From Stigmatella aurantiaca (GTDB lineage Bacteria > Myxococcota > Myxococcia > Myxococcales > Myxococcaceae), in NCBI RefSeq assembly GCF_900109545.1, contig NZ_FOAP01000031.1, positions 1 through 64,000 on the forward strand: DNA of 64,000 bases. The letters run 5' to 3'. Both the position numbers and the translations under genes were made by a program. The stretch's first letter is position 1. Each line of letters starts with the position of its first letter. The notes below the pieces were generated by a model. It saw only the letters and a program-made list of their open reading frames with translations, made no database searches and was not told the origin of the DNA. Shown in pieces: positions 16,128-36,604 of the stretch.

Positions 16128-16454
16128 ATGGATGTGAAGCACCTGTCCGCCTTCCAAGCCTTCTCCGCGGAGAAGCTCCAGAAGCACAACGTCTTCCAGT
16201 CCGGGCGCTTCTTCCTGGACGTGTACTGCGTCGCCCCCGGGCAGGCGCAGAAGCCCCACCAACACGCCCTGTCCGACAAGGTGTACCTCGTCCTCGAAGG
16301 CCGCTGCCGCTTCCGGCTCGGCGCCGAGGAGGAGACCCATGGCGCGGGTGCCACCGTGTTCGCCCCCGCGGGCGTGGAGCACGGCGTGGCCAACGACGGG
16401 CCGGACAACGCCCGTCTCCTCGTTCTGATGACCCCCCCTCCGGAGCATGCATGA
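16128..16454 (+). CDS. Small cupin-domain protein
   Basis: A 108-residue single-domain cupin. The first metal motif is PHQHALSDKVYLVLEG (His, His and a possible Glu), the second is FAPAGVEHGVAND with the fourth His. Such small cupins bind a metal and act as sensors or simple dioxygenases/isomerases; activity here is unknown. ATG 16128 follows AGGAG by 11 bases. Its stop overlaps the ATG of the VKOR-DsbA gene by an ATGA junction, showing translational coupling and a shared redox-related role. Confidence 0.88.
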   Translation: MDVKHLSAFQAFSAEKLQKHNVFQSGRFFLDVYCVAPGQAQKPHQHALSDKVYLVLEGRCRFRLGAEEETHGAGATVFAPAGVEHGVANDGPDNARLLVLMTPPPEHA

Positions 16455-17776
16455 GCCAGAAGGCCTCCTCGCCCTCTCCCGTCCCCGCCCGTGGCGCCCA
16501 GGTGCTCCTGGGCCTGGGCATCGCCGAGAGCGCGCTCTCCCTCTTCCAGTGGTCCCAGCTGCTCACGCTGCGTGGGGGTGGCGCCACCGTGTGTGGCGTC
16601 TCCGAGCACGTCAACTGTGAGACCGTGTGGAACTCGCCCTTCGCCAGCCAGGTGCACGCGCTGACGGGCATTCCCGTGGCGGGCCTCGGCCTGCTGTGGG
16701 GCATCGTCGCCACGGCGCTCGCGGGCCTGTACCTGGCCTGGCGCGGCGGGGGCCACAGCGTGCGCCCCGCCGTCAACGGCCTGCGGCTGACGGCGCTCGC
16801 GGGCGTGGCGGCCACGGCGCTCTTCGCCGGCGTGAGCGCGGGCACGGGCGTGCTGTGCCCCACGTGCCTGGGCACCTATGCGCTGGTGATTGCCTTCGCG
16901 GCGGTGGCCTGGCGCGGCCTGCCGGGCCCCGTGGTGCCGCAAGGCGGCGAGTGGGGCCGCACCCTGACGTGGACGGTGGGCTTCACCGTGGCGGGCTTCC
17001 TCGCGCTGCTCATTCCAGGCAGCGCCACCCCGAAGGCCTCCTCGGGCGAGACGGCGCTGCCCCAGGTGAGCGCCGAGCCGGGCTCGGTGGAGCAGTACCT
17101 CAAGGGGCTGTCCGGGCGGGAGCAGCAGATGGTGTCCGATGCCCTGGCGCAGTACCGCCGGGACACGCCGCAGCCGGCCCTGGCCCCCGCGCGCCGCCGC
17201 TTCGGCCCCGCGGACGCGCCGGTGAAGGTGGTGGAGTGGACCGACAGCAAGTGCCCGCACTGCAAAATCCTGGTGGAGTCCGTGGCGGACCTGAAGCGGC
17301 GCGTGCCCGAGGGGAAGTTCTCCCTGGAGGCGCGGCAGTACCCGCTGGACGGGGCGTGCAACCCGGCCATCCCGCCGCAGTACAGCGATGGCTCGGGCAC
17401 GCGGTGCCTCGCCGCCAAGGCGCAGATCTGCCTGGAGGGGGCCTCGGACTACTGGTCGCTGCGCGAGAAGCTCTTCGCCAACCAGGCGGCGCTCACCGGC
17501 CCGAAGGTGATGGAGATCGCCTCCTCCGGCACGGTGCCGCGCTCGCAGCTCGAGGCGTGCGTGAACAGCCCCGAGACGGGGGCCCGGCTCCGCGAGGACG
17601 TCTCCTACGCGAAGCAGCACGACATCCACGGCACGCCGCTCATGGTCGTCAACGGCCGCGAGGTGCCGCCCAGCGTGCCCTTCCTCTACGCGCTGGTGAT
17701 GGCCGGCGGTGACACGAGCGCGCCCGCGTGGAACGTGCTGCCGCCCCCGAACCCGCCGCAGGCCCACGCGCACTGA
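16451..17776 (+). CDS. VKOR - DsbA-like thioredoxin fusion (disulfide-bond formation)
   Basis: A 441-residue membrane protein. Residues about 15-175 form a vitamin K epoxide reductase domain of four to five membrane segments with the loop Cys pair CGVSEHVNC and the active CPTC; this re-oxidises its partner with quinone. After another hydrophobic segment, residues about 245-425 are a DsbA/thioredoxin-fold domain with the active CPHC and the cis-Pro loop GTPLMVVNGREV. The fusion joins donor and acceptor of the oxidative folding pathway in one chain, with the thioredoxin part placed in the periplasm. Two further Cys (CNPAIPPQY, CLAAKAQIC) are within that domain. It is coupled by ATGA overlap upstream and a TGATG overlap downstream. 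Confidence 0.92.
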   Translation: MSQKASSPSPVPARGAQVLLGLGIAESALSLFQWSQLLTLRGGGATVCGVSEHVNCETVWNSPFASQVHALTGIPVAGLGLLWGIVATALAGLYLAWRGGGHSVRPAVNGLRLTALAGVAATALFAGVSAGTGVLCPTCLGTYALVIAFAAVAWRGLPGPVVPQGGEWGRTLTWTVGFTVAGFLALLIPGSATPKASSGETALPQVSAEPGSVEQYLKGLSGREQQMVSDALAQYRRDTPQPALAPARRRFGPADAPVKVVEWTDSKCPHCKILVESVADLKRRVPEGKFSLEARQYPLDGACNPAIPPQYSDGSGTRCLAAKAQICLEGASDYWSLREKLFANQAALTGPKVMEIASSGTVPRSQLEACVNSPETGARLREDVSYAKQHDIHGTPLMVVNGREVPPSVPFLYALVMAGGDTSAPAWNVLPPPNPPQAHAH

Positions 17777-18159
17777 TGGGCAAGAAAGACCGCAAGCCCG
17801 AGCCCGCCGCCCCCGCCGCGCCGTTCCACAACCCGTTCGCGGCGCTCGCGGGCCAGCGCGAGGCGCTGCCTTCGGGCCCGGCGCCCCAGGCGGCCCCGCC
17901 GAAGCCCGAGGCCCGCAAGGGGCCCGCGAAGGCCGTGGTGCGCATGGAGCGCAAGGGGCGCGGCGGCAAGGAAGTGACGGTGGTGGAGCAACTGGGCCTG
18001 CCCCCCGCGGAGCGCGAGGCGTGGCTCAAGGCGCTGAAGGGCTCGCTGGGCTGCGGGGGCGCGGTGGAGGAGGACGTCCTCGTGCTGCAAGGCGACCACC
18101 GGGAACGGCTGCCCGCGCTGCTGGAGGCGCGAGGCGTGCGCCGCGTCGTGGTGGGCTGA
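17776..18159 (+). CDS. SUI1/eIF1-like translation factor (YciH family)
   Basis: A 127-residue protein with a Lys/Pro/Ala-rich, probably disordered N-terminus and a C-terminal SUI1 domain. The signature RKGRGGKEVTVVEQLGL begins near residue 60, followed by the usual Gly-rich turn (LKGSLGCGGAVEED) and a final LQGDHRERLPALLEARG. Bacterial YciH proteins bind the small ribosomal subunit and can affect start-site fidelity or stress translation. ATG 17776 reuses the last base of the preceding stop (TGATG), so it is coupled to the VKOR-DsbA gene; the functional link is not obvious. A hairpin at 18184-18208 ends the operon. Confidence 0.9.
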   Translation: MGKKDRKPEPAAPAAPFHNPFAALAGQREALPSGPAPQAAPPKPEARKGPAKAVVRMERKGRGGKEVTVVEQLGLPPAEREAWLKALKGSLGCGGAVEEDVLVLQGDHRERLPALLEARGVRRVVVG

Positions 18160-18366: not shown

Positions 18367-19341
18367 CTACTGGAGAAACCCGGACGGGCCCTGACCGGAG
18401 TCCGGCGAGGGCTCCGGGCGCATCCGCGAGGTGGGCCGCGGCCGTGCGTCGCTCACCGCCGGACCTGCCGGGTGGAGCTGGGAGACGAGGCACGCCGCGC
18501 TTCCCCCGGCGAGGTGGAACTGGTCCAGGGGGAGCTCCACCGGACAGCGGCCCTGGGCGCGCAGCAGCGTCTGCACCCAGGCGGTGCGCGCGCCCACGAA
18601 CACCGTGGCGCCCACCTCCACCAGGTTGAGGCCAAAGCCGAGCGCCTCCTCGCGCGGAACGCTCAGCACCTGGCGGATGCCCTCGGTGCGCTCCAGGGTG
18701 CGCAGCGCCGCGGGCGTGAAGGCATCGGGGCACACCAGCGCGGTGCCGTCCGACAGCACGTGCAGCGCGGTGTCCAGGTGGTAGAGGTGCGGATCCTTCA
18801 GCTCCAGCGGCGTCACCGGCGCATCGAGGAAGATCTCCAGCATCACCGCCGCGCGCCGGGAGGAGCGCTGGCCGTAGCCCAGGAGCGCGCCCCGGCCGCC
18901 GGGCAGCATCGCGAGATCTCCCCCCTCGAAGGCCACGGGCGGGGGGCTGAAGATGTCGAAGCCGAGCCGGTCCAGCACGCGCGCCCGGGCCTGTTGCTCC
19001 TGCTGGCGCTGGCGGAAGACAGGGGAGGCCAGCAGGGCACGCTTCTGGCCGTGCTTCTCCAGGAGCAAGGCGTTGTCCTTGGCGAAGACGCAGTCATAGG
19101 CCCCGTGCACGAAGGGCAGCTCCAGCAAGTGGGCGCCCGCGGCGCGCAGGGCGCGGCGGAAGAGCCGGTGCTGGGCGCGGGCGCGGCGCCAGTTGACGGC
19201 GCCGACCTTCATGTGCGGGTTGATGGTCCACGCGACCTGATAGGCACAATCAGAGGTGCGCAGGCCACAGCGCGTCTCTTCACAGCAAAGCTCGCTGACC
19301 ACGAATGTCGGGGGCACAGGTTGTCGGATCCGGAAGGCCAT
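18367..19341 (-). CDS. Guanidino-group-modifying enzyme (DDAH / arginine deiminase / amidinotransferase superfamily)
   Basis: A 324-residue enzyme from ATG 19341 (GAGGG nine bases upstream; an in-frame ATG at 19347 adds two residues). The fivefold pseudo-symmetric superfamily motifs are visible: FVHGAYDCVFAKDN (Asp83 and Asp89 region), FEGGDL with Glu139 and Asp142 that grip the guanidinium group, YHLDT with catalytic His188, and GGSAAC with the nucleophilic Cys284. Members hydrolyse or transfer the amidino group of arginine-like substrates. The exact reaction (hydrolysis of methylarginine, deimination or transfer) cannot be assigned. The C-terminal 25 residues are low complexity. It is divergent, 66 bases away, from a heme-oxygenase-like diiron enzyme gene, suggesting a common pathway on an N-modified guanidine. 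Confidence 0.85.
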   Translation of the reverse strand: MAFRIRQPVPPTFVVSELCCEETRCGLRTSDCAYQVAWTINPHMKVGAVNWRRARAQHRLFRRALRAAGAHLLELPFVHGAYDCVFAKDNALLLEKHGQKRALLASPVFRQRQQEQQARARVLDRLGFDIFSPPPVAFEGGDLAMLPGGRGALLGYGQRSSRRAAVMLEIFLDAPVTPLELKDPHLYHLDTALHVLSDGTALVCPDAFTPAALRTLERTEGIRQVLSVPREEALGFGLNLVEVGATVFVGARTAWVQTLLRAQGRCPVELPLDQFHLAGGSAACLVSQLHPAGPAVSDARPRPTSRMRPEPSPDSGQGPSGFLQ

Positions 19342-19407
19342 CACCATTTTCCCTCTGTCCGAGGACGGCATCAGGCCGTCCCGGGTTGTCTGGGAAGGAT
19401 GTGCACC

Positions 19408-20349
19408 ATGTGGGAGCAGCGAGAGGCTGGGGGGGAGGTCAAGGCAGGAGCTGGCACCCGCCTCGAAGGGCAGGCAAGGGAGCTGGACCCGGGCCTGCTC
19501 CACCGGCTCCTGTTGCGCTTCAACCGGGGCCGGTTGAACCCGTCCTTTCCGCAGGAGGACTGGGAAGCCGATGTCATGCGGGAGGCCCGCTTGCGGTGCC
19601 TGGAAGGGGCCTTCGTGGAGGCCGCGCGCGAGGCCATCGCCGGGTGGGCCGCGGAAGCGCCGGAGGATCCGGATGCGTTCGTGGCCTGGTTCGAGGACCT
19701 GAAGCAGACGGGGCCGGGGCAGGGGGATCTGCTCTTCACGTGGCTCGCCCAGGAGGCGCCGCTGGAGCCGTTCCGCTGGTTCCTCACGCAGGAGGTGGCG
19801 GGCGAGGCGGGCTTCGATGATCTCGTGGCGATGACGCAGGTGAAGCTGCCCACGCGGGCGAAGCTGGAACTGGCGCGCAACTACTGGGACGAGATGGGGC
19901 GGGGCCGCGAGGACGCGATGCACGGGCCGATGCTGGAGGGGCTCGCCCAGGCGTTGGACCTGCACCCCACGGACGAGGACACGGTGTGGGAGGCACACGC
20001 GCTGGCGAACCTGCTGGTGGCCTTCGCGGCGAACCGCCGCTACACGTACCACTCGGTGGGCGCGCTCGGGGCGGTGGAGCTGACGGCCCCGGGCCGCGCG
20101 CTGTGCGTCAACGAGGGGCTCCAGCGGCTCGGGTTCGGCATGCCGGTGCGGCGCTACTACGCGCTGCACTCCACGCTGGACGTGAAGCACTCGGAGGCGT
20201 GGAACAAGGAGGTGCTCCGGCCGCTGGTGGCGGCGGACCCGCGCGTGGCACGCCCCATCGCGGAAGGTGCGCTGATGCGCCTCCGGGCCGGGGCCCTCTG
20301 CTTCGAGCGCTACCGAAAGGAACTGGGGCTCACGCCGAAGGGGGACTGA
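19408..20349 (+). CDS. Heme-oxygenase-like diiron oxidase (HDO superfamily, Haem_oxygenas_2)
   Basis: A 313-residue all-alpha protein from ATG 19408 (AAGGA eight bases before; ATG 19399 is too close to that site). The expected diiron ligand set is complete: Glu162 and His172 (YWDEMGRGREDAMHG), Glu224 (GAVELTAPG), then His254-x3-Asp258-x2-His261 (LHSTLDVKH). This pattern distinguishes HDO oxidases such as UndA, CADD and SznF's central domain from true heme oxygenases. Known members activate oxygen for N-hydroxylation, oxidative C-C cleavage or desaturation. Here the divergent neighbour acts on guanidino groups, so an arginine-derived substrate is an attractive but unproven idea. It ends before an inverted repeat at 20362-20401. 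Confidence 0.85.
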   Translation: MWEQREAGGEVKAGAGTRLEGQARELDPGLLHRLLLRFNRGRLNPSFPQEDWEADVMREARLRCLEGAFVEAAREAIAGWAAEAPEDPDAFVAWFEDLKQTGPGQGDLLFTWLAQEAPLEPFRWFLTQEVAGEAGFDDLVAMTQVKLPTRAKLELARNYWDEMGRGREDAMHGPMLEGLAQALDLHPTDEDTVWEAHALANLLVAFAANRRYTYHSVGALGAVELTAPGRALCVNEGLQRLGFGMPVRRYYALHSTLDVKHSEAWNKEVLRPLVAADPRVARPIAEGALMRLRAGALCFERYRKELGLTPKGD

Positions 20350-20492: not shown

Positions 20493-22757
20493 ATGAAGCG
20501 AGGCTTTCCCATCCTCATGGGCCTGGCCGTCAGCGCCCCTGCGTTCGCCGCCGGCGAAACGGCCCAGGTGTGGCTCACCCGGCAGGACCTGTCCCAGGCG
20601 CTGCAACCGCAGGGCAACGTGGTGTTCGGCGCGGATGCCAGCGCCGGGCAGACGACCCTCTACGTGGACGAGAAGACCACCTACCAGACGCTGGATGGCA
20701 TCGGCGCGTCGCTGACCGACTCCTCGGCCTGGCTCATCAAGAACAAGCTGAGCGCGGCCAACCAGGCCGCGGTGATGGCCAAGCTGTTTGATCCGGTCAA
20801 CGGCATCGGCGTCTCCTGGCTGCGCCAGCCCATGGGGGCCTCCGACTTCTCGTCTCGCGGCAACTACTCGTACGACGACATGCCGGCCGGGCAGCGGGAT
20901 GACACGAACCTGTCCCGGTTCACCCTGGCCCATGATCAGCAGTACATCATCCCGCTGGTGAAACAGGCCCTGAGCCTGAATCCGAACCTCAAGGTGATGC
21001 TCTCGCCATGGAGCGCGCCGGGGTGGATGAAGGCCAATGACTCGATGAACGGCGGGACACTGAACACCAGCGCCTACGGCCAGTTCGCCCTGTACTTCGC
21101 CAAGACGGTGAAGGGCTACGAGGCGGCGGGCATCCCCATCTACGCGCTGACCATCCAGAACGAGCCGCTGCATCAGACCTCGGGCTACCCGACGATGTAC
21201 ATGACGGCCGCCGAGGCGAACAACTTCATCAAGTACAACCTGGGGCCGACGCTGGCCAACCAGGGCCTCAAGACGAAGGTGCTCGGGTATGACCACAACT
21301 GGGATCAGCCGGGCTACGTCCAGACGCTCTACGCGGACGCGTCCACCTACGGCTACCTCGCGGGCTCCGCCTGGCACTTCTACGGCGGCAACGTCGAGAC
21401 GATGAGCGACATCCACTACCAGTACCCCGAGAAGGACGTCTACTTCACGGAGGGCTCCAGCGGGACGTGGCACACCAACCTCTTCGAAGCGAACATCACC
21501 AACGAGATCAACATCTTCCGCAACTGGGCGAAGACGTACACGGACTGGAACATCGCGCTCGACACGAACCGGGGCCCCACCAACGGCGGGTGTACGACGT
21601 GCTCGGGGCTGGTGACCATCAATCAGGCCACGGGCCAGGCCTCGTACACGTCCACGTATTACGCGATGGGACACATCAGCAAGTTCGTCGTCCCGGGGGC
21701 CAAGCGCATCGCGTCCTCGGGCTTCACGAAGGGGCTGTTCAACGTCGCGTTCAAGAACCCGGACGGCTCCAAGTCGCTCATCGTCTACAACCAGAACGGC
21801 GCGAGCACGCCGTTCGCGGTGAAGTGGGGCAACGCCTCGTTCACCTACACGCTGCCCGCCACGTCCATCGCCACGTTCAAGTGGGCGGGCACCCAGGCGG
21901 GTGACACGGCGATCCGCTCCGGGGACCGGCTCCTGGCCTCGTCGTACCACGAGGGGCGCGGCGTGCGGCTGGAGAGCACCACCGACGCGGGCGGGGGCCA
22001 GGCCATCGGGTTCACGTCCTCGGGCAGCTTCCTGCGGTTCGAGAACGTGGACCTGACGAACGTCACCTCCGTGAGCGCCCGCGTGGCGAACGGCGGCTCG
22101 AATGCGACGCTGGAACTGCGGACCGACAGCCCCACGGGCCCGCTGCTCGGCACCGTGGCCGCCAACGTCACGGGCGGCTGGCAGACGTGGGTGACGAATA
22201 CCGCGTCCCTCACGGGGGCCTCGGGGGTGAAGGACCTCTACGTGGTGTTCCGGGGCAGCACCAACCTGAACTGGCTGCAGTTCGGCGGGGGCACCTCGCA
22301 GCCTCCCACGGGCAACCTGCTCACCAACCCGGGCTTCGAGGCGGGAACGCTGAGCGGCTGGTCGGACTGGCACCCCACGACGCAGGCCGCCGCCGCGCAT
22401 CAGGTGGACTCCGACACGCCCCGCGCGAGCAGCTTCAAGCTGACGCACTACGCGGGCACCGCCTATCAGCAGACGACGCACCAGGCGGTCAGCGTGCCCA
22501 ATGGCACGTACCGGGCCAGCGTGTGGGTGCGCTCGGGGGGCGGACAGACGAACCTGCGCCTGGAGGCGAGCAACCACGGTGGGGGCACGACGTTGTACAG
22601 CACGGACCTCAAGGGCACGGCGTCGCCCAGCACCTGGACGCAGCTGACCCTCAGCAACATCCCCGTGACGACGGGCACGGTGACGATTGGCATCCACTCG
22701 AACGCGGCCGCGGGCAACTGGGCGGCGTTCGATGATGTCGAGCTGACGCGGCAGTAG
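20493..22757 (+). CDS. Secreted GH30 glycoside hydrolase with C-terminal carbohydrate-binding domains
   Basis: A 754-residue exported enzyme with a Sec signal (residues 1-19, ending AFA). Residues about 40-470 form the GH30 (beta/alpha)8 barrel plus beta-sandwich: the acid/base Glu224 in TIQNEPL, the nucleophile Glu320 in YFTEGSSG, and SPWSAPGWMK typical of glucosylceramidase/endo-beta-1,6-glucanase relatives. Residues about 475-605 resemble a CBM6 module (GGGQAIGFTSSGSFLRFENVDL) and 612-754 a CBM4/9-like sandwich (NLLTNPGFEAGTLSGW). AAGGAG precedes the ATG. Likely substrates are beta-1,6- or beta-1,3-glucans of fungal walls or glucosylceramides; the exact linkage cannot be read. It acts outside the cell as a degradative enzyme. 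Confidence 0.92.
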   Translation: MKRGFPILMGLAVSAPAFAAGETAQVWLTRQDLSQALQPQGNVVFGADASAGQTTLYVDEKTTYQTLDGIGASLTDSSAWLIKNKLSAANQAAVMAKLFDPVNGIGVSWLRQPMGASDFSSRGNYSYDDMPAGQRDDTNLSRFTLAHDQQYIIPLVKQALSLNPNLKVMLSPWSAPGWMKANDSMNGGTLNTSAYGQFALYFAKTVKGYEAAGIPIYALTIQNEPLHQTSGYPTMYMTAAEANNFIKYNLGPTLANQGLKTKVLGYDHNWDQPGYVQTLYADASTYGYLAGSAWHFYGGNVETMSDIHYQYPEKDVYFTEGSSGTWHTNLFEANITNEINIFRNWAKTYTDWNIALDTNRGPTNGGCTTCSGLVTINQATGQASYTSTYYAMGHISKFVVPGAKRIASSGFTKGLFNVAFKNPDGSKSLIVYNQNGASTPFAVKWGNASFTYTLPATSIATFKWAGTQAGDTAIRSGDRLLASSYHEGRGVRLESTTDAGGGQAIGFTSSGSFLRFENVDLTNVTSVSARVANGGSNATLELRTDSPTGPLLGTVAANVTGGWQTWVTNTASLTGASGVKDLYVVFRGSTNLNWLQFGGGTSQPPTGNLLTNPGFEAGTLSGWSDWHPTTQAAAAHQVDSDTPRASSFKLTHYAGTAYQQTTHQAVSVPNGTYRASVWVRSGGGQTNLRLEASNHGGGTTLYSTDLKGTASPSTWTQLTLSNIPVTTGTVTIGIHSNAAAGNWAAFDDVELTRQ

Positions 22758-31478: not shown

Positions 31479-32570
31479 ATGTCATCCACGCCGCCCACTG
31501 ACGAGGCCCGGGCCGTCCGTCCCGGAGAGGAGCTGGACCTGCCCGCCGTCGACGCCTGGCTCAAGGCCCAGGTGCCGTCGCTCGAAGGCACGCCCCAGGT
31601 CACCCAGTATTCCGGGGGGGCCTCGAACTGGACCTACCGGCTCCAGTACGCGAACAGAGACCTCATCCTGCGCCGGCCGCCGGCGGGCACCAAGGCCAAG
31701 TCCGCGCACGACATGGGGCGCGAGTTCTCGGTGCAGCAGGCGCTCAAGTCCGCCTATCCGGCCGTGCCCACCATGGTGGCGCTGTGCCAGGACCCGGCCG
31801 TGATGGGCTCGGAGTTCTACGTGATGGAGCGCATCGCGGGCCTCATCCCGCGCTCGCGCCTGCCACAGGGGCTCCAGCTCGACAAAGCGCAGACGCGCCA
31901 GCTGTGCCTCAACGTCATCGACAAGCTCATCGCGCTGCACCGGGTGGATCCGCAGGCGGTGGGGCTCGCCTCGCTGGGCAAGGGCAAGGGCTACCCCCGG
32001 CGCCAGATCGAAGGCTGGTCGGACCGCTTCGAGAAGGCCCACACCTGGAACGTGCCGCGCTTCCGGGCTGTGCGCCGCTGGCTGGAGGAGCACACCCCGG
32101 AGGACATCGCCACCTGCGTCATCCACAATGACTGGCGCTTCGACAACGTGGTGCTCGACCCCCAGCGCCCCACGGAAGTCATCGGCGTGCTGGACTGGGA
32201 GATGGCGACGCTGGGAGACCCGCTGATGGACCTGGGCAGCGCGCTGGCCTACTGGGTCCACGCAGATGACGACCTGGTGCTGCGCACCATGCGCCGCCAG
32301 CCCACGCACCTGCCCGGCATGCTCCGGCGCGAGGAGGTGGTGGCCTACTACCTGGAGCGCACGGGGCTGAAGCCCGCCAACTGGACGTTCTACGAGGTGT
32401 ATGGCCTGTTCCGGCTCGCGGTCATCGTCCAGCAGATCTACTACCGCTACCACCACCGGCAGACGCGCAACCCCGCCTTCAAGCACTTCTGGATCATCGT
32501 CAACTACCTGCACTGGCGCTGCCGGCGCCTCATCAAAAAGTCACGGGCAGCCGCTCCAGACCGTGGATGA
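31479..32570 (+). CDS. APH-family kinase (ACAD10/11 N-domain-like; putative hydroxyacyl-CoA kinase)
   Basis: A 363-residue phosphotransferase. The Gly-rich ATP loop is YSGGASNWTYRL near residue 43, then a Lys/Arg-bearing strand, the Brenner motif VIHNDWRFDNVV (catalytic Asp) near 213 and the metal Asp in VLDWEMATLGDP near 234. This APH subfamily is fused to acyl-CoA dehydrogenase domains in human ACAD10/11 and is separate in bacteria (LvaA), where it phosphorylates 4-hydroxyacyl-CoA. Here it directly follows the ACAD and SDR genes, so the same role is inferred. No good ribosome site is seen; ATG 31479 is the first in frame. Its 3' end overlaps the convergent P450 gene by 38 bases. Confidence 0.88.
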   Translation: MSSTPPTDEARAVRPGEELDLPAVDAWLKAQVPSLEGTPQVTQYSGGASNWTYRLQYANRDLILRRPPAGTKAKSAHDMGREFSVQQALKSAYPAVPTMVALCQDPAVMGSEFYVMERIAGLIPRSRLPQGLQLDKAQTRQLCLNVIDKLIALHRVDPQAVGLASLGKGKGYPRRQIEGWSDRFEKAHTWNVPRFRAVRRWLEEHTPEDIATCVIHNDWRFDNVVLDPQRPTEVIGVLDWEMATLGDPLMDLGSALAYWVHADDDLVLRTMRRQPTHLPGMLRREEVVAYYLERTGLKPANWTFYEVYGLFRLAVIVQQIYYRYHHRQTRNPAFKHFWIIVNYLHWRCRRLIKKSRAAAPDRG

Positions 32571-33744
32571 GCAGGCTGTCGCGCCACCGCAGCGTGGCGG
32601 GGTCCACCGCGAAGCGCAGCCGGGGCAGCCGCTCCAGGAGCAGGCGGAAGGACACCTGGGCCTCCAGCAGCGCCAGCGGGGCCCCCAGGCAGAAGTGGAT
32701 GCCCGAGCCGAAGGCGATGTGCCGGTTGGGCTGGCGGCCGATGTCGAAGCGCTCCGGCTCGGGGAACACGTCGCCGTCGCGGTTGGCGGACAGCAGCCCC
32801 GCCACGAGCATCTCCCCGGCGGGGATGTGCTGCCCATGGAACTCGGTGTCCTCGGTGGTGAAGCGGCTGGTGGAGTGCCGCACCGGGCCGCAGTAGCGCA
32901 GCATCTCCTCCACGGCGGAGTCGAGCAGCGCGGGCTCGGCACGCAGCCGCTCGAGCTGCCCGGGGTGCTGGAGCAGGGCCCAGACGCCATTGCCAATGAG
33001 GTTCACCGTCGTCTCGTGGCCGGCCACCAGGAGCAGGAACACCATGCTCATCAGCTCCTCGGGGGTGAGCCGGTCGCCCTGCTCCTCGGCGGCGATCATC
33101 GCGCTGGCCAGGTCATCCTGCGGGTCGGCCCGGCGCCGGGCGAGGAAGTCCTGGAGGTAGGTCTGGAACTCCTGGGCCATGCGGCGCAGGGGCGCCAGGT
33201 CTCCGTCCTTCGGCGGGGTGAGGAAGGTGGTGGTCCACTCGCGGAACCGGTCCTGGTCCTCCACGGGCACCCCTAGCAGCTCCGCGATGACGGTGATGGG
33301 CAGGGGAAAGGCAAAGGCATCCAGCAGGTCCACCTGCTGCTGTGGTTGGAGCTGGTCCAGCAACTGGCTGGCGATGGCGGTGATGCGCGGGCGCAGGGCC
33401 TCCACCCGGCGCAGGGTGAAGGCCTGGGCCACCAGCGAGCGCAGCCGGGTGTGCATGGGCGGATCCGCGCTGAGCATGTGCTGATCGAGGTGCTTGAGCG
33501 AGCTCACCCGGAAGTACCGCCGCTGGGACTCCTTGGGGAGCTTCTGCTTGCTCTTGGCGAAGCGGGGATCCTTCAGGAAGTCCACCGCGGCCTGATACCG
33601 GCACACCACCCAGATGGGCCCCTCCATGGAGGGGTGGCGCGAGCGGGCCACGGGCGTCTCCCGCCGCATCCGGGCATACAGCGGGAAGGGATTCGCGGTG
33701 ACCTCCGGAGACCACAGCTCATAGGGAACATCCGGAGTGCTCAC
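32533..33744 (-). CDS. Cytochrome P450 (bacterial class, CYP107-like)
   Basis: A 403-residue soluble P450. Motifs: AGHETTVN (oxygen-binding I helix), the ExxR pair in EEMLRYCGP, the meander and the heme loop FGSGIHFCLG with Cys352 as thiolate ligand. It hydroxylates small molecules with ferredoxin partners encoded elsewhere. It is the last gene of the minus-strand run 36604 to 32533 but 61 bases from the preceding methyltransferase, so co-transcription is uncertain. Natural-product tailoring or fatty-acid hydroxylation are both plausible. Tail-to-tail overlap with the kinase gene is unusual but short. Confidence 0.93.
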   Translation of the reverse strand: MSTPDVPYELWSPEVTANPFPLYARMRRETPVARSRHPSMEGPIWVVCRYQAAVDFLKDPRFAKSKQKLPKESQRRYFRVSSLKHLDQHMLSADPPMHTRLRSLVAQAFTLRRVEALRPRITAIASQLLDQLQPQQQVDLLDAFAFPLPITVIAELLGVPVEDQDRFREWTTTFLTPPKDGDLAPLRRMAQEFQTYLQDFLARRRADPQDDLASAMIAAEEQGDRLTPEELMSMVFLLLVAGHETTVNLIGNGVWALLQHPGQLERLRAEPALLDSAVEEMLRYCGPVRHSTSRFTTEDTEFHGQHIPAGEMLVAGLLSANRDGDVFPEPERFDIGRQPNRHIAFGSGIHFCLGAPLALLEAQVSFRLLLERLPRLRFAVDPATLRWRDSLLIHGLERLPVTF

Positions 33745-33805
33745 GCGAACCTCGGCGCCACGGGGAGGGCCAGCGCCGGAAGCCTAACAACGGCTCAGCG
33801 GCGCT

Positions 33806-34726
33806 TCACGCGGAACGGGTCGCCACGAGCGCCACCACCGCGATGCGCTCCACGTTGGCGTAGGGGCGCTTCTCCAGCTCCTCGCTGAAGACGTCGGGAT
33901 CCAACTCCTCGTAATGGGCTTGCACGCCGGGCCGTTGCAGGAAGGGCAGCAGGGCGGCCTTGAGCTGATCCTCGCCGTCCACCACGGGGGTGCCGCTGTA
34001 GAGGACGAACGTGCCGCCGGGCCCCAGGCGCTCCATCGCCTCGCGCGTGAAGCGCACGGACAGCTCGATGCCATAGCTGCCCCCGCCGTGGCGGTACGTG
34101 CGCGAGCCCTCGTCCACGAGGTACGGGGGGTTGGCCATCACCAGGTCCACGTCCCCCGGAATCGCGCGCAGCCCATCGCTCCGCGTGCACTCCACGCCGG
34201 ACACCCCGTTGAGCGCGGCGTTGATGCGCGAGAAGCGCAGGGCGCGCGTGCTCACGTCGGACAGGACAATCGTGTCCACCCGGCCCGCCAGGGACAGGCC
34301 TCCGGCCCCGGAGCCGCAGCCCAGGTCCACCGCGCGCCGGAAGTGCCCGGGCACGCGCGAGAGCAGCGAGGCGAAGCGGTACGTGTCGGGCCCGAAGAAG
34401 ACGGAGTCCTCCGACAGGGTGGGGTAGGCATCGTGCAGGTAGAGCCCCCCGCCGAGGCTGGAGAAGCGCACCAGGCTGCGCAGCCAGCCGTTCGTCAGGT
34501 GCTCCACCATCTCCGCGCGCTCCAGCAGCTCCAGCAGGGGCTTGGGCAGCACCTCCGGCTGGAAGGGGCGGCTCCAGCCGAACACATCCCGCACGGTGCG
34601 GGCCGCCTGGGAGGAGGGCCGCTCGTTGACGCGGCGGTGGGCCTCGGGGGTCACGGTGATGAAGTGGTAGCCCGAGTCGCGCAGCGCCCGGCCCAGTTGC
34701 AGCAGCGGTTCGTCCTGGATGGTCAC
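33806..34726 (-). CDS. SAM-dependent methyltransferase with NPPY motif
   Basis: The GTG at 34726 gives 306 residues starting VTIQDEPLLQLGRALRD; a longer GTG at 34795 would add 23 residues including two Cys. Both lack a strong ribosome site. An N-terminal domain (residues about 1-120) precedes the Rossmann fold: AVDLGCGSGAGGLSLAG (motif I), IVLSDVSTRALRFSRINA, and MANPPYLVDEG, the NPPY motif of N-methyltransferases acting on Gln or adenine/guanine bases (PrmC/RlmG-like). The target is probably protein or RNA rather than a metabolite, but that is inferred. It lies between P450 and EamA genes on the same strand. Confidence 0.82.
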   Translation of the reverse strand: MTIQDEPLLQLGRALRDSGYHFITVTPEAHRRVNERPSSQAARTVRDVFGWSRPFQPEVLPKPLLELLERAEMVEHLTNGWLRSLVRFSSLGGGLYLHDAYPTLSEDSVFFGPDTYRFASLLSRVPGHFRRAVDLGCGSGAGGLSLAGRVDTIVLSDVSTRALRFSRINAALNGVSGVECTRSDGLRAIPGDVDLVMANPPYLVDEGSRTYRHGGGSYGIELSVRFTREAMERLGPGGTFVLYSGTPVVDGEDQLKAALLPFLQRPGVQAHYEELDPDVFSEELEKRPYANVERIAVVALVATRSA

Positions 34727-34808
34727 CTGCCCAGCTTTGAGATGGGGGCAAGCCCTGTCAAGGCACGCGTGCCCGGGCTGTCCGTCAGCCGCCACCGGGC
34801 GGCGGGGC

Positions 34809-35726
34809 TCAGGCCGGCGCGGTCTGCCGCGAGCGCTCCGGGGCGAACTGGGCCATCGCCGCGCTGGAGAGGATGAGCGTACCGCCGAGGATCAGCGAGG
34901 GCGTGAGGGGCTCGTGGAGCATCACCACGCCCAGCGCCACGGCCACCAGCGTGTCCAGCAGCGACATGACGCCCACTGCGGCGAGCGACACGCGCTGCAG
35001 CAGCCAGTAATAACAGCCATACGTCATCACCGTGCCGCCCAGCGCCAGGTACAGCACGGCCATCACCGCGCGTGGCGTCCAGTTCGCCGTCTGTCCCCCC
35101 TCCAGGAGGAAGGAGGCGCCCAGCAGGGGCACCGCGCTGCTCAGCGTCTGGATGAACACGAGCACCAGGGGCGGCACGTGCGCCATGTGCCGCTTCACCA
35201 GCACGTTGGCCACGGCCATGAACCCCGTGGACACCAGGATGAGCCCTCCCCCGAGCCACACGAGGTGGGACACCTCCATCTGCCCGAGCTGTGAGTACTG
35301 CAGGGCCACCACGCCCACCACCCCCAGCCCGGCGGCGAACAGCTTGGGCGCCGTCAGCGGTTGATCCGGCATCAGCACGCGCCCCACCAGCAGCAGCCAC
35401 ACGGGGAAGGTGGAGAAGAGCAGCGAGGCCCAGCTCGTGGGCACCCACTGCTGGCCGACGAAGAGCAGGGCGAAGGGAATGGAGAGCTGAAGACAGCCCA
35501 GGCCCATGATGTGGCCCGTGGTGCGCCTCCCCAGCTTCATGCCCTGGGCGCGGGCGAAGGGCAGGAGGATGAGCCCCGCCACCAGCATGCGGATGCCCGC
35601 GAAGCGCAGCGGCGGCAGGTCATCCAGCCCCGCCTTCACCACGGCCCAGGTGGAGCCCCACAGCAGGAAGCAGGTGCAATACGCGACGGCGAGCTTGACG
35701 GGATGCGCTGCGGGCTTCGGAACCAT
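34809..35726 (-). CDS. EamA/DMT-family transporter
   Basis: A 305-residue protein with ten hydrophobic segments in two similar halves, the drug/metabolite transporter (EamA) organisation; LLWGSTWAVVKAGLDDLPPLRFAGIRM at the start and LLDTLVAVALGVVMLHEPLTPSLILGG near the end are the paired repeat signatures. ATG 35726 is used. Such proteins export amino acids, nucleosides or other metabolites. It is 53 bases after the PhyH gene on the same strand. Confidence 0.92.
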   Translation of the reverse strand: MVPKPAAHPVKLAVAYCTCFLLWGSTWAVVKAGLDDLPPLRFAGIRMLVAGLILLPFARAQGMKLGRRTTGHIMGLGCLQLSIPFALLFVGQQWVPTSWASLLFSTFPVWLLLVGRVLMPDQPLTAPKLFAAGLGVVGVVALQYSQLGQMEVSHLVWLGGGLILVSTGFMAVANVLVKRHMAHVPPLVLVFIQTLSSAVPLLGASFLLEGGQTANWTPRAVMAVLYLALGGTVMTYGCYYWLLQRVSLAAVGVMSLLDTLVAVALGVVMLHEPLTPSLILGGTLILSSAAMAQFAPERSRQTAPA

Positions 35727-35779
35727 GGGCAGCGCGGGGCGTAGCACGGGAGTTCCCCGTCTGCCCAGGAGCGGACGGC

Positions 35780-36604
35780 TCAAAAGCCGCGTGGCGGCAG
35801 GGCAGGCGAGCGGCGCAGCCAGTTGTCCTCGGGGTAGGTGGCCGTGCCATCGATGAGGTGGAGCGAGTAGGCGTGCCGGCTGCGCGAGGAGGTGTTGGCG
35901 CCGCTGCGGTGCGGCAACAGGCCGTGCAGCACCACCAGGGTGCCCTTCTCCACCTCCAGGGGCACCATGCCCTCCTCGGACAGTGGGGTGGCGTCCAGCG
36001 TCCGGAACACCGTGCCGCCCTCGGGGGCGCGCACGAAGCGCCGCTTCAGCCCCTGGCGGTGCCCCCCGGGCTGAGCCCACAGGCAGCCGTTCTCCAGCGT
36101 GGCATCCTCCAGGGCGAACCAGAAGCCCAGGCACGTGGAGGGCTCGGTGTAGAGGAACGCCGCGTCCTGGTGGCTGGTGACTTCCCCGCCGATGTGGGGC
36201 TGCTTGAAGATGTACATGGACTGAAGGAGGAGCGGCCGCTGGAGCCCTAGCTCCGCTGCCAGCCCTGCCAGCGCGGGCGTGCGCGAGAACCGGTCGAACA
36301 GGGGATCCAGGTCGTGCAGCGCGTGGCCGATCTTGTTGATGGACTGCGCCTGCGCCTGACGCAGGGAGCCGTCGGGCAGGAAGGCGTCCTCCTCGAAGAA
36401 GAAGCGGATCTGGTCCCCCGAGGAGAGGAAGTACGCATCCGACGTGCGCCTCTGTTCGTCGGTGCTGAAGATGGACCGCGTCTCGGGCTGAAAGCCGTCC
36501 ACGAGTGTTTCAGCCCGCTGTTTCAGCGCGTCACAGGCGCCGGCTGTCACGAACCGGGGAAGAACGAGAAAGCCCTGGTGCTCGAAATCGCTGGCCCGGT
36601 TCAT
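35780..36604 (-). CDS. Phytanoyl-CoA dioxygenase (PhyH) family protein
   Basis: A 274-residue Fe(II)/2-oxoglutarate-dependent enzyme. The iron ligands are His and Asp in SHQDAAF (about residue 145) and the distal His in LLPHRSGAN (about 229); an Arg 11 residues after that His (SRHAYSLHL) binds 2-oxoglutarate. The family hydroxylates fatty acyl or small-molecule substrates. CAGGAG precedes the ATG at 36604, a good ribosome site. It is the first gene of the minus-strand run with EamA, methyltransferase and P450. The 151 bases to the divergent ATPase regulator (36756) should hold both promoters. Confidence 0.9.
   Translation of the reverse strand: MNRASDFEHQGFLVLPRFVTAGACDALKQRAETLVDGFQPETRSIFSTDEQRRTSDAYFLSSGDQIRFFFEEDAFLPDGSLRQAQAQSINKIGHALHDLDPLFDRFSRTPALAGLAAELGLQRPLLLQSMYIFKQPHIGGEVTSHQDAAFLYTEPSTCLGFWFALEDATLENGCLWAQPGGHRQGLKRRFVRAPEGGTVFRTLDATPLSEEGMVPLEVEKGTLVVLHGLLPHRSGANTSSRSRHAYSLHLIDGTATYPEDNWLRRSPALPPRGF

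Follow-up and report, generated by a model that had tools for sequence, protein, structure and literature searches.

Only about a dozen heme-oxygenase-like diiron oxidases (HDOs) have known reactions (PMC13108848). In the mangotoxin pathway the HDO MboA oxidises Leu-Ala-Arg, the arginine deiminase MboE then acts as deiminating enzyme, and ATP-grasp ligases make the peptide (PMC13185094, 2026). The lysine N-oxygenases HrmI and BelK belong to the hormaomycin and belactosin pathways. In streptozotocin biosynthesis (SznE/SznF) an HDO likewise acts on an arginine derivative in the company of a methyltransferase, and we know of no enzyme of the guanidine-modifying enzyme (GME) superfamily in that pathway. 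Here we analysed a locus in which an HDO and a GME are encoded side by side. The initial annotation knew of no described pathway with exactly this pair; this was wrong, because the mangotoxin cluster combines MboA with MboE (PMC13185094).

The locus lies in a 64,000-nucleotide stretch of Stigmatella aurantiaca DNA, referred to as the window, and consists of the following features:

18367-19341 (or 19347), minus strand: GME with an arginine-deiminase-type site (D91, E141, H190, D192 and C286 when numbering starts at the ATG at 19347)
19342-19407, no strand assigned: divergent intergenic region of 66 bp with a hairpin at 19363-19381
19408-20349, plus strand: HrmI-like HDO with the putative metal ligands E162, H172, E224, H254, D258 and H261

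Both open reading frames were intact, that of the HDO encoding 313 aa and that of the GME 324 or 326 aa depending on the start codon. As annotated initially, the genes are on opposite strands and 66 bases apart when the GME starts at 19341, a distance that shrinks to 60 bases with the start at 19347; the same choice determines whether the catalytic residues are numbered H188/C284 or H190/C286. Between the two start codons we identified the hairpin GGACGGC-ATCAG-GCCGTCC (19363-19381), which was present in 13 of 13 correctly oriented loci. In relatives the sequence of its stem varies while pairing is kept, with the arms GCCTCGGC/GCCGAGGC in the relative G034, GCGGGC/GCCCGC in G014 and CCGGAAGGC/GCCTTCCGG in Corallococcus. 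On the far side of the GME the window carries an adjoining YciH/SUI1-like gene (17728-18159), which follows a gene for a VKOR domain fused to a DsbA/thioredoxin domain (16451-17776), and positions 20493-22757 encode a GH30 endo-1,6-beta-glucanase-like enzyme with CBM6 and CBM4_9 domains.

Among 144 relatives, orthologs of the HDO (at least 57% identity) were found in 31 genomes and those of the GME (at least 52% identity) in 25. In all 24 genomes of the Myxococcaceae family having both orthologs the genes are divergent neighbours, so that the co-occurrence in other myxobacteria which the initial annotation proposed to check holds. The pair was also found in Polyangiaceae, Labilithrix, Oligoflexia and metagenome-assembled genomes (MAGs) of Deltaproteobacteria, with 44-55% identity, and not always in the same arrangement: at locus L146 the GME, a methyltransferase and the HDO follow one another on the same strand, operon-like and without a shared promoter. 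Given linkage in 24 of 24 genomes and in several arrangements, we rejected the notion that HDO and GME are chance neighbours. Two genomes deviate. G017 kept the GME and lacks both the HDO and the methyltransferase described below, while the GME of G034 (L063:8182-8664) carries an in-frame internal deletion with loss of E141 and H190, next to an intact HDO and methyltransferase.

The HDO matched the Pfam family PF14518 at 7e-44, above the cut-off. The six ligands proposed initially were correctly placed; they showed no variation in 11 myxobacterial and 11 cross-phylum sequences (Myxococcota to Pseudomonadota) and aligned with their counterparts in HrmI and SznF. Three histidines and three carboxylates on a predicted seven-helix heme-oxygenase fold place the protein within the 3H/3C definition of the HDO superfamily. 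Structure prediction, which had been suggested as a check, concordantly yielded an AF2 model (pLDDT 84.6) that matched HDO structures, in descending order those of the N-oxygenases HrmI (TM-score about 0.8), RohS and SznF. HrmI was also the best sequence match (6e-46), at an identity of only about 30%, whereas SznF was far weaker (2e-5), and the C-terminal cupin domain of SznF was not found in the 313-aa protein, in which Pfam detected PF14518 only. SznF, whose central domain the initial annotation cited as an example of an HDO oxidising methylated arginine, is therefore a far more distant comparison than the lysine N-oxygenase HrmI. The likeness to HrmI and BelK extends to the fold and all six metal ligands; however, HrmI acts on lysine, not arginine, and the window HDO is partnered by a methyltransferase and the GME.

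This proximity to HrmI, by far the closest solved enzyme, invites the reading that the HDO is a lysine N-oxygenase producing a nitro amino acid, and that the GME is a neighbour with a role of its own which shares nothing but the promoter. HDO genes do often stand alone, and lysine is also taken by some cyanophycin synthetases (PMC10206079). Yet GME and HDO recur together in differing arrangements, GME linkage changes at least five times on the HDO tree, and at L146 there is no promoter to share. We regard this reading as quite improbable.

Assignment of the GME to a known family was less straightforward. It passed the PF19420 cut-off (28.2 bits against 23; 1.4e-6), and its nearest solved relatives were the arginine dihydrolases AgrE/ArgZ (4e-35), followed by dimethylarginine dimethylaminohydrolases (DDAHs; 2e-10). 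The AF2 model was weak (pLDDT 62.6) and was used as support only. Asp91, Glu141, His190, Asp192 and Cys286 are invariant across nine orthologs. ADIs, i.e. arginine deiminases, have Asp at the position of Asp192, while DDAHs have Lys, which makes room for the dimethylamino group (PMC11659421). All GME orthologs contain H190-L-D192, and the DDAH-type Lys two residues past the catalytic His is not there. Since Asp192 agrees with the ADIs, the active site is of the arginine-deiminase type, with two putative guanidine-binding Asp residues, Glu, His and Cys. The original placement in the DDAH/deiminase superfamily with His188 and Cys284 thus holds for the superfamily and for both residues (start at 19341), but Asp192 does not fit a DDAH.

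None of three characterised families accommodated the protein. As a DDAH it was ruled out by Asp192 in place of Lys, and its best NCBIfam score, to the dimethylargininase model, was 120 bits, far under the cut-off of 300. Membership of the ArcA family of arginine deiminases was rejected with 15 bits for PF02274 (cut-off 22.8) and a chain about 90 aa shorter than those of ADIs (418-433 aa). ArgZ/AgrE share Cys, His, Glu and the second Asp with the GME; however, the dihydrolases have Asn (Asn71 in ArgZ) where all GME orthologs have Asp91, the GME is devoid of an ornithine cyclodeaminase domain, and the ArgZ/AgrE model gave 91 bits against a cut-off of 450. Asn71, the residue mutated in the N71S structure, is presumably the first guanidine-binding position of ArgZ. 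An Arg at the position of ArgZ R90 holds the substrate carboxylate in the GME superfamily. In the alignment of the myxobacterial orthologs this position is Ser or Thr, and the substrate of the GME may therefore be something other than free arginine.

A third gene, overlooked in the initial annotation, lies 13 kb from the pair. It encodes a methyltransferase and is part of a minus-strand run (32533-36604):

32533-33669, minus strand: cytochrome P450, part of the methyltransferase gene run, conserved only in close relatives
33806-34795, minus strand: SAM-dependent methyltransferase (NPPY, MTS/HemK-like), matching the HDO exactly in its distribution among relatives and adjoining it in other lineages
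34809-35783, minus strand: EamA-family transporter, upstream of the methyltransferase
35780-36604, minus strand: PhyH-family (Fe/2-oxoglutarate) dioxygenase, first gene of the run

All 31 genomes having the HDO, but none of the 113 others, carried a methyltransferase ortholog of at least 48% identity (Fisher 3e-32, kinship between the 144 genomes ignored). Presence and absence of the two genes were concordant even inside the five genera in which they vary (g1, g7, g12, g38 and g43), and in an even sample of 210 genomes from one Pseudomonadota class the HDO ortholog occurred in two and the methyltransferase in the same two only. Clustering of neighbouring genes showed the NPPY methyltransferase directly adjoining the HDO in one family (f7) and the GME in one genus (g12); in Corallococcus it is present but unlinked. 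Because 32 of 48 HDO genomes outside Myxococcaceae have the methyltransferase and 16 do not, it is a strong, not a universal, partner of the HDO. The NPPY motif is present, but a HemK/PrmC glutamine methyltransferase was rejected (54.7 bits against 199 for the curated PrmC model). The order of dioxygenase, transporter, methyltransferase and P450 is kept in one relative (G004, L175), and the run looks like a small operon for tailoring and export around the methyltransferase, with the P450 as a possible extra tailoring enzyme and the EamA protein as a possible exporter.

NPPY methyltransferases act on planar nitrogens, and methylarginine is the substrate of SznF. Together with the dimethylargininase model being the top NCBIfam hit of the GME (120 bits), this is compatible with an SznE/SznF-like sequence in which the methyltransferase would form N-methylarginine, the HDO would hydroxylate it and the GME, as a true DDAH, would remove methylamine for turnover or self-protection. 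Asp192, an arginine-deiminase residue where DDAHs have Lys, speaks against such a role, as do the distance of the GME score from the cut-off of 300 bits, the missing cupin domain and the far closer relationship of the HDO to HrmI. We consider it rather unlikely.

In a scan of species genomes the HDO family comprised at least 456 relatives, and neighbourhoods were inspected for the best 80 of these. Counting genes up to about 7 kb from the HDO, these 80 loci carried a methyltransferase in 36 cases, a GME ortholog in 16, cyanophycin synthetase (CphA) and/or cyanophycinase (CphB) in 13 and a PurD-like ATP-grasp protein in 10; several of the loci stem from MAGs with possible contamination, and kinship was corrected for only in the count along the HDO tree, on which CphA linkage changes at least six times. 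The identity of CphA and CphB was borne out by curated models, at 1079 bits (cut-off 850) and 278 bits (cut-off 127). Their arrangement varies: CphB-CphA|HDO, HDO-CphA-CphB, CphA-CphB-methyltransferase-HDO or methyltransferase|CphB-CphA|HDO. In one genome (G180) the methyltransferase adjoins CphA and the HDO is elsewhere. CphA was encoded in 14 of 48 HDO genomes, compared with 6 of 208 background genomes lacking the HDO. In Allosphingosinicella vermicomposti (L106:7828-8799) the gene directly behind the HDO belongs to a second GME lineage, 26% identical to the window GME and likewise with an arginine-deiminase-type site.

CphA and CphB are absent both beside the HDO-GME pair of the window and from its genome, in which the best CphA match, at 5.7e-5, was not convincing. 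The cyanophycin link is therefore borrowed from other lineages; as a general HDO partner cyanophycin was rejected for the window and kept as a pointer only. Solitary HDO genes without a common neighbour are frequent, above all in Sphingomonadales, and no hidden conserved partner was found in 16 such loci. Together with the 16 of 48 genomes without the methyltransferase, this implies that the HDO is independent of these partners.

The cyanophycin genes adjoining the HDO in other lineages, and AgrE/ArgZ being the nearest relatives of the GME, could also point to a catabolic module in which HDO and GME help to release nitrogen stored as arginine, the role that AgrE/ArgZ have in cyanobacteria. The methyltransferase is hard to fit into such a scheme, cyanophycin synthetase was not found in most myxobacterial HDO genomes, Asp91 occupies the position at which dihydrolases have Asn, and characterised HDOs are mostly biosynthetic (PMC13108848). 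A catabolic role is thus unlikely.

The PurD-like protein, likewise overlooked in the initial annotation, is an ATP-grasp paralog and not a true PurD (GAR synthetase), with 92 bits against 288 for the curated purD model. In the Myxococcota sample this ligase and the GME were complementary (24 vs 7), but the stricter description as mutually exclusive alternatives was dropped because one locus (L122) has both, with HDO, methyltransferase, GME and ligase all together. Two Panacagrimonas genomes (G147 and G158; L170, L172/L173) contain two HDO copies each, with the ligase and the methyltransferase alongside in differing combinations.

ATP-grasp ligases beside related HDOs recall the mangotoxin cluster, which has the same enzyme classes and is the nearest working example of an HDO alongside a GME, and raise the idea of a small peptide antimetabolite that such ligases would build from arginine and HDO and GME would modify (PMC13185094). 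The ligase beside HDO or methyltransferase in 10 of the best 80 of at least 456 loci and the four-gene locus L122 are in line with this. However, the likeness is one of enzyme class: MboA is a desaturase/acetylenase working with the reductase MboB and no methyltransferase is described, while the window HDO is HrmI-like. Of the mbo set (HDO, GME deiminase, two ATP-grasp ligases and a flavin/Fe-S reductase) HDO and GME are present, and no ortholog of the PurD-like ligase turned up in the window's genome, where the best match reached 2e-17 at 30% identity. A mangotoxin-type pathway was accordingly rejected for the window set, and a peptide antimetabolite of this kind seems improbable.

Conserved linkage, co-occurrence, intact active sites and the nearest relatives instead favour an arginine-linked biosynthetic module, to which we assign a probability of roughly 0.5. 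The HDO and its partner methyltransferase would form the core. Like HrmI, the HDO would be a diiron N-oxygenase that depends on O2, and its target would be a side-chain nitrogen of an arginine-family substrate, either a free amino acid (arginine or ornithine) or an arginine residue within a small peptide, for example beta-Asp-Arg. The methyltransferase would methylate this substrate or the oxidised product, the order of the two steps being conjectural, and the GME would hydrolyse guanidine to ureido, giving Cit from Arg in the manner of MboE in mangotoxin biosynthesis. In other lineages the arginine part may be supplied or processed by CphA/CphB, the PurD-like ligase or another GME. The main argument is the repeated linkage of the HDO to arginine enzymes, from which we infer an arginine-derived substrate; because these genes repeatedly lie beside arginine-handling ones, the module probably makes an unusual arginine-derived compound. 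A small N-oxidised signal as the product is a guess. The shared arginine-derived pathway of the initial annotation was thereby upheld in part, through the conserved pair, the full ligand set of the HDO and two independent pointers to arginine, namely CphA/CphB in 13 of the best 80 of at least 456 loci and the second GME lineage. Against the biosynthetic module stand the lysine substrate of HrmI, the missing CphA in the window's genome, the HDO genes lacking a methyltransferase or any partner, and the two deviating genomes, one with a GME and neither HDO nor methyltransferase, the other with both and a GME deprived of its catalytic middle.

More broadly, and tentatively, at somewhat less than even odds, an HrmI-like HDO and a dedicated NPPY methyltransferase may act on arginine or cyanophycin-derived beta-Asp-Arg in an undescribed pathway of hundreds of Pseudomonadota and Myxococcota species, fed or finished by interchangeable modules (CphA/CphB, two deiminase-like lineages and the PurD-like ligase). 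The protein families are known; what is new, as far as the literature searched goes, is their combination with a dedicated methyltransferase and a recurring cyanophycin link. Our searches found no description of this HDO subfamily or of an HDO with cyanophycin.

The module is apparently widespread and undescribed, its HDO subfamily having at least 456 members in species-representative genomes against the dozen or so HDOs of known reaction. Judged by the genes that keep recurring beside the HDO, the likely substrate class is arginine and its storage polymer, so that a small panel of candidate substrates would allow a direct test of function. If the cyanophycin link is true, the polymer would feed the synthesis of oxidised small molecules in addition to storing nitrogen.
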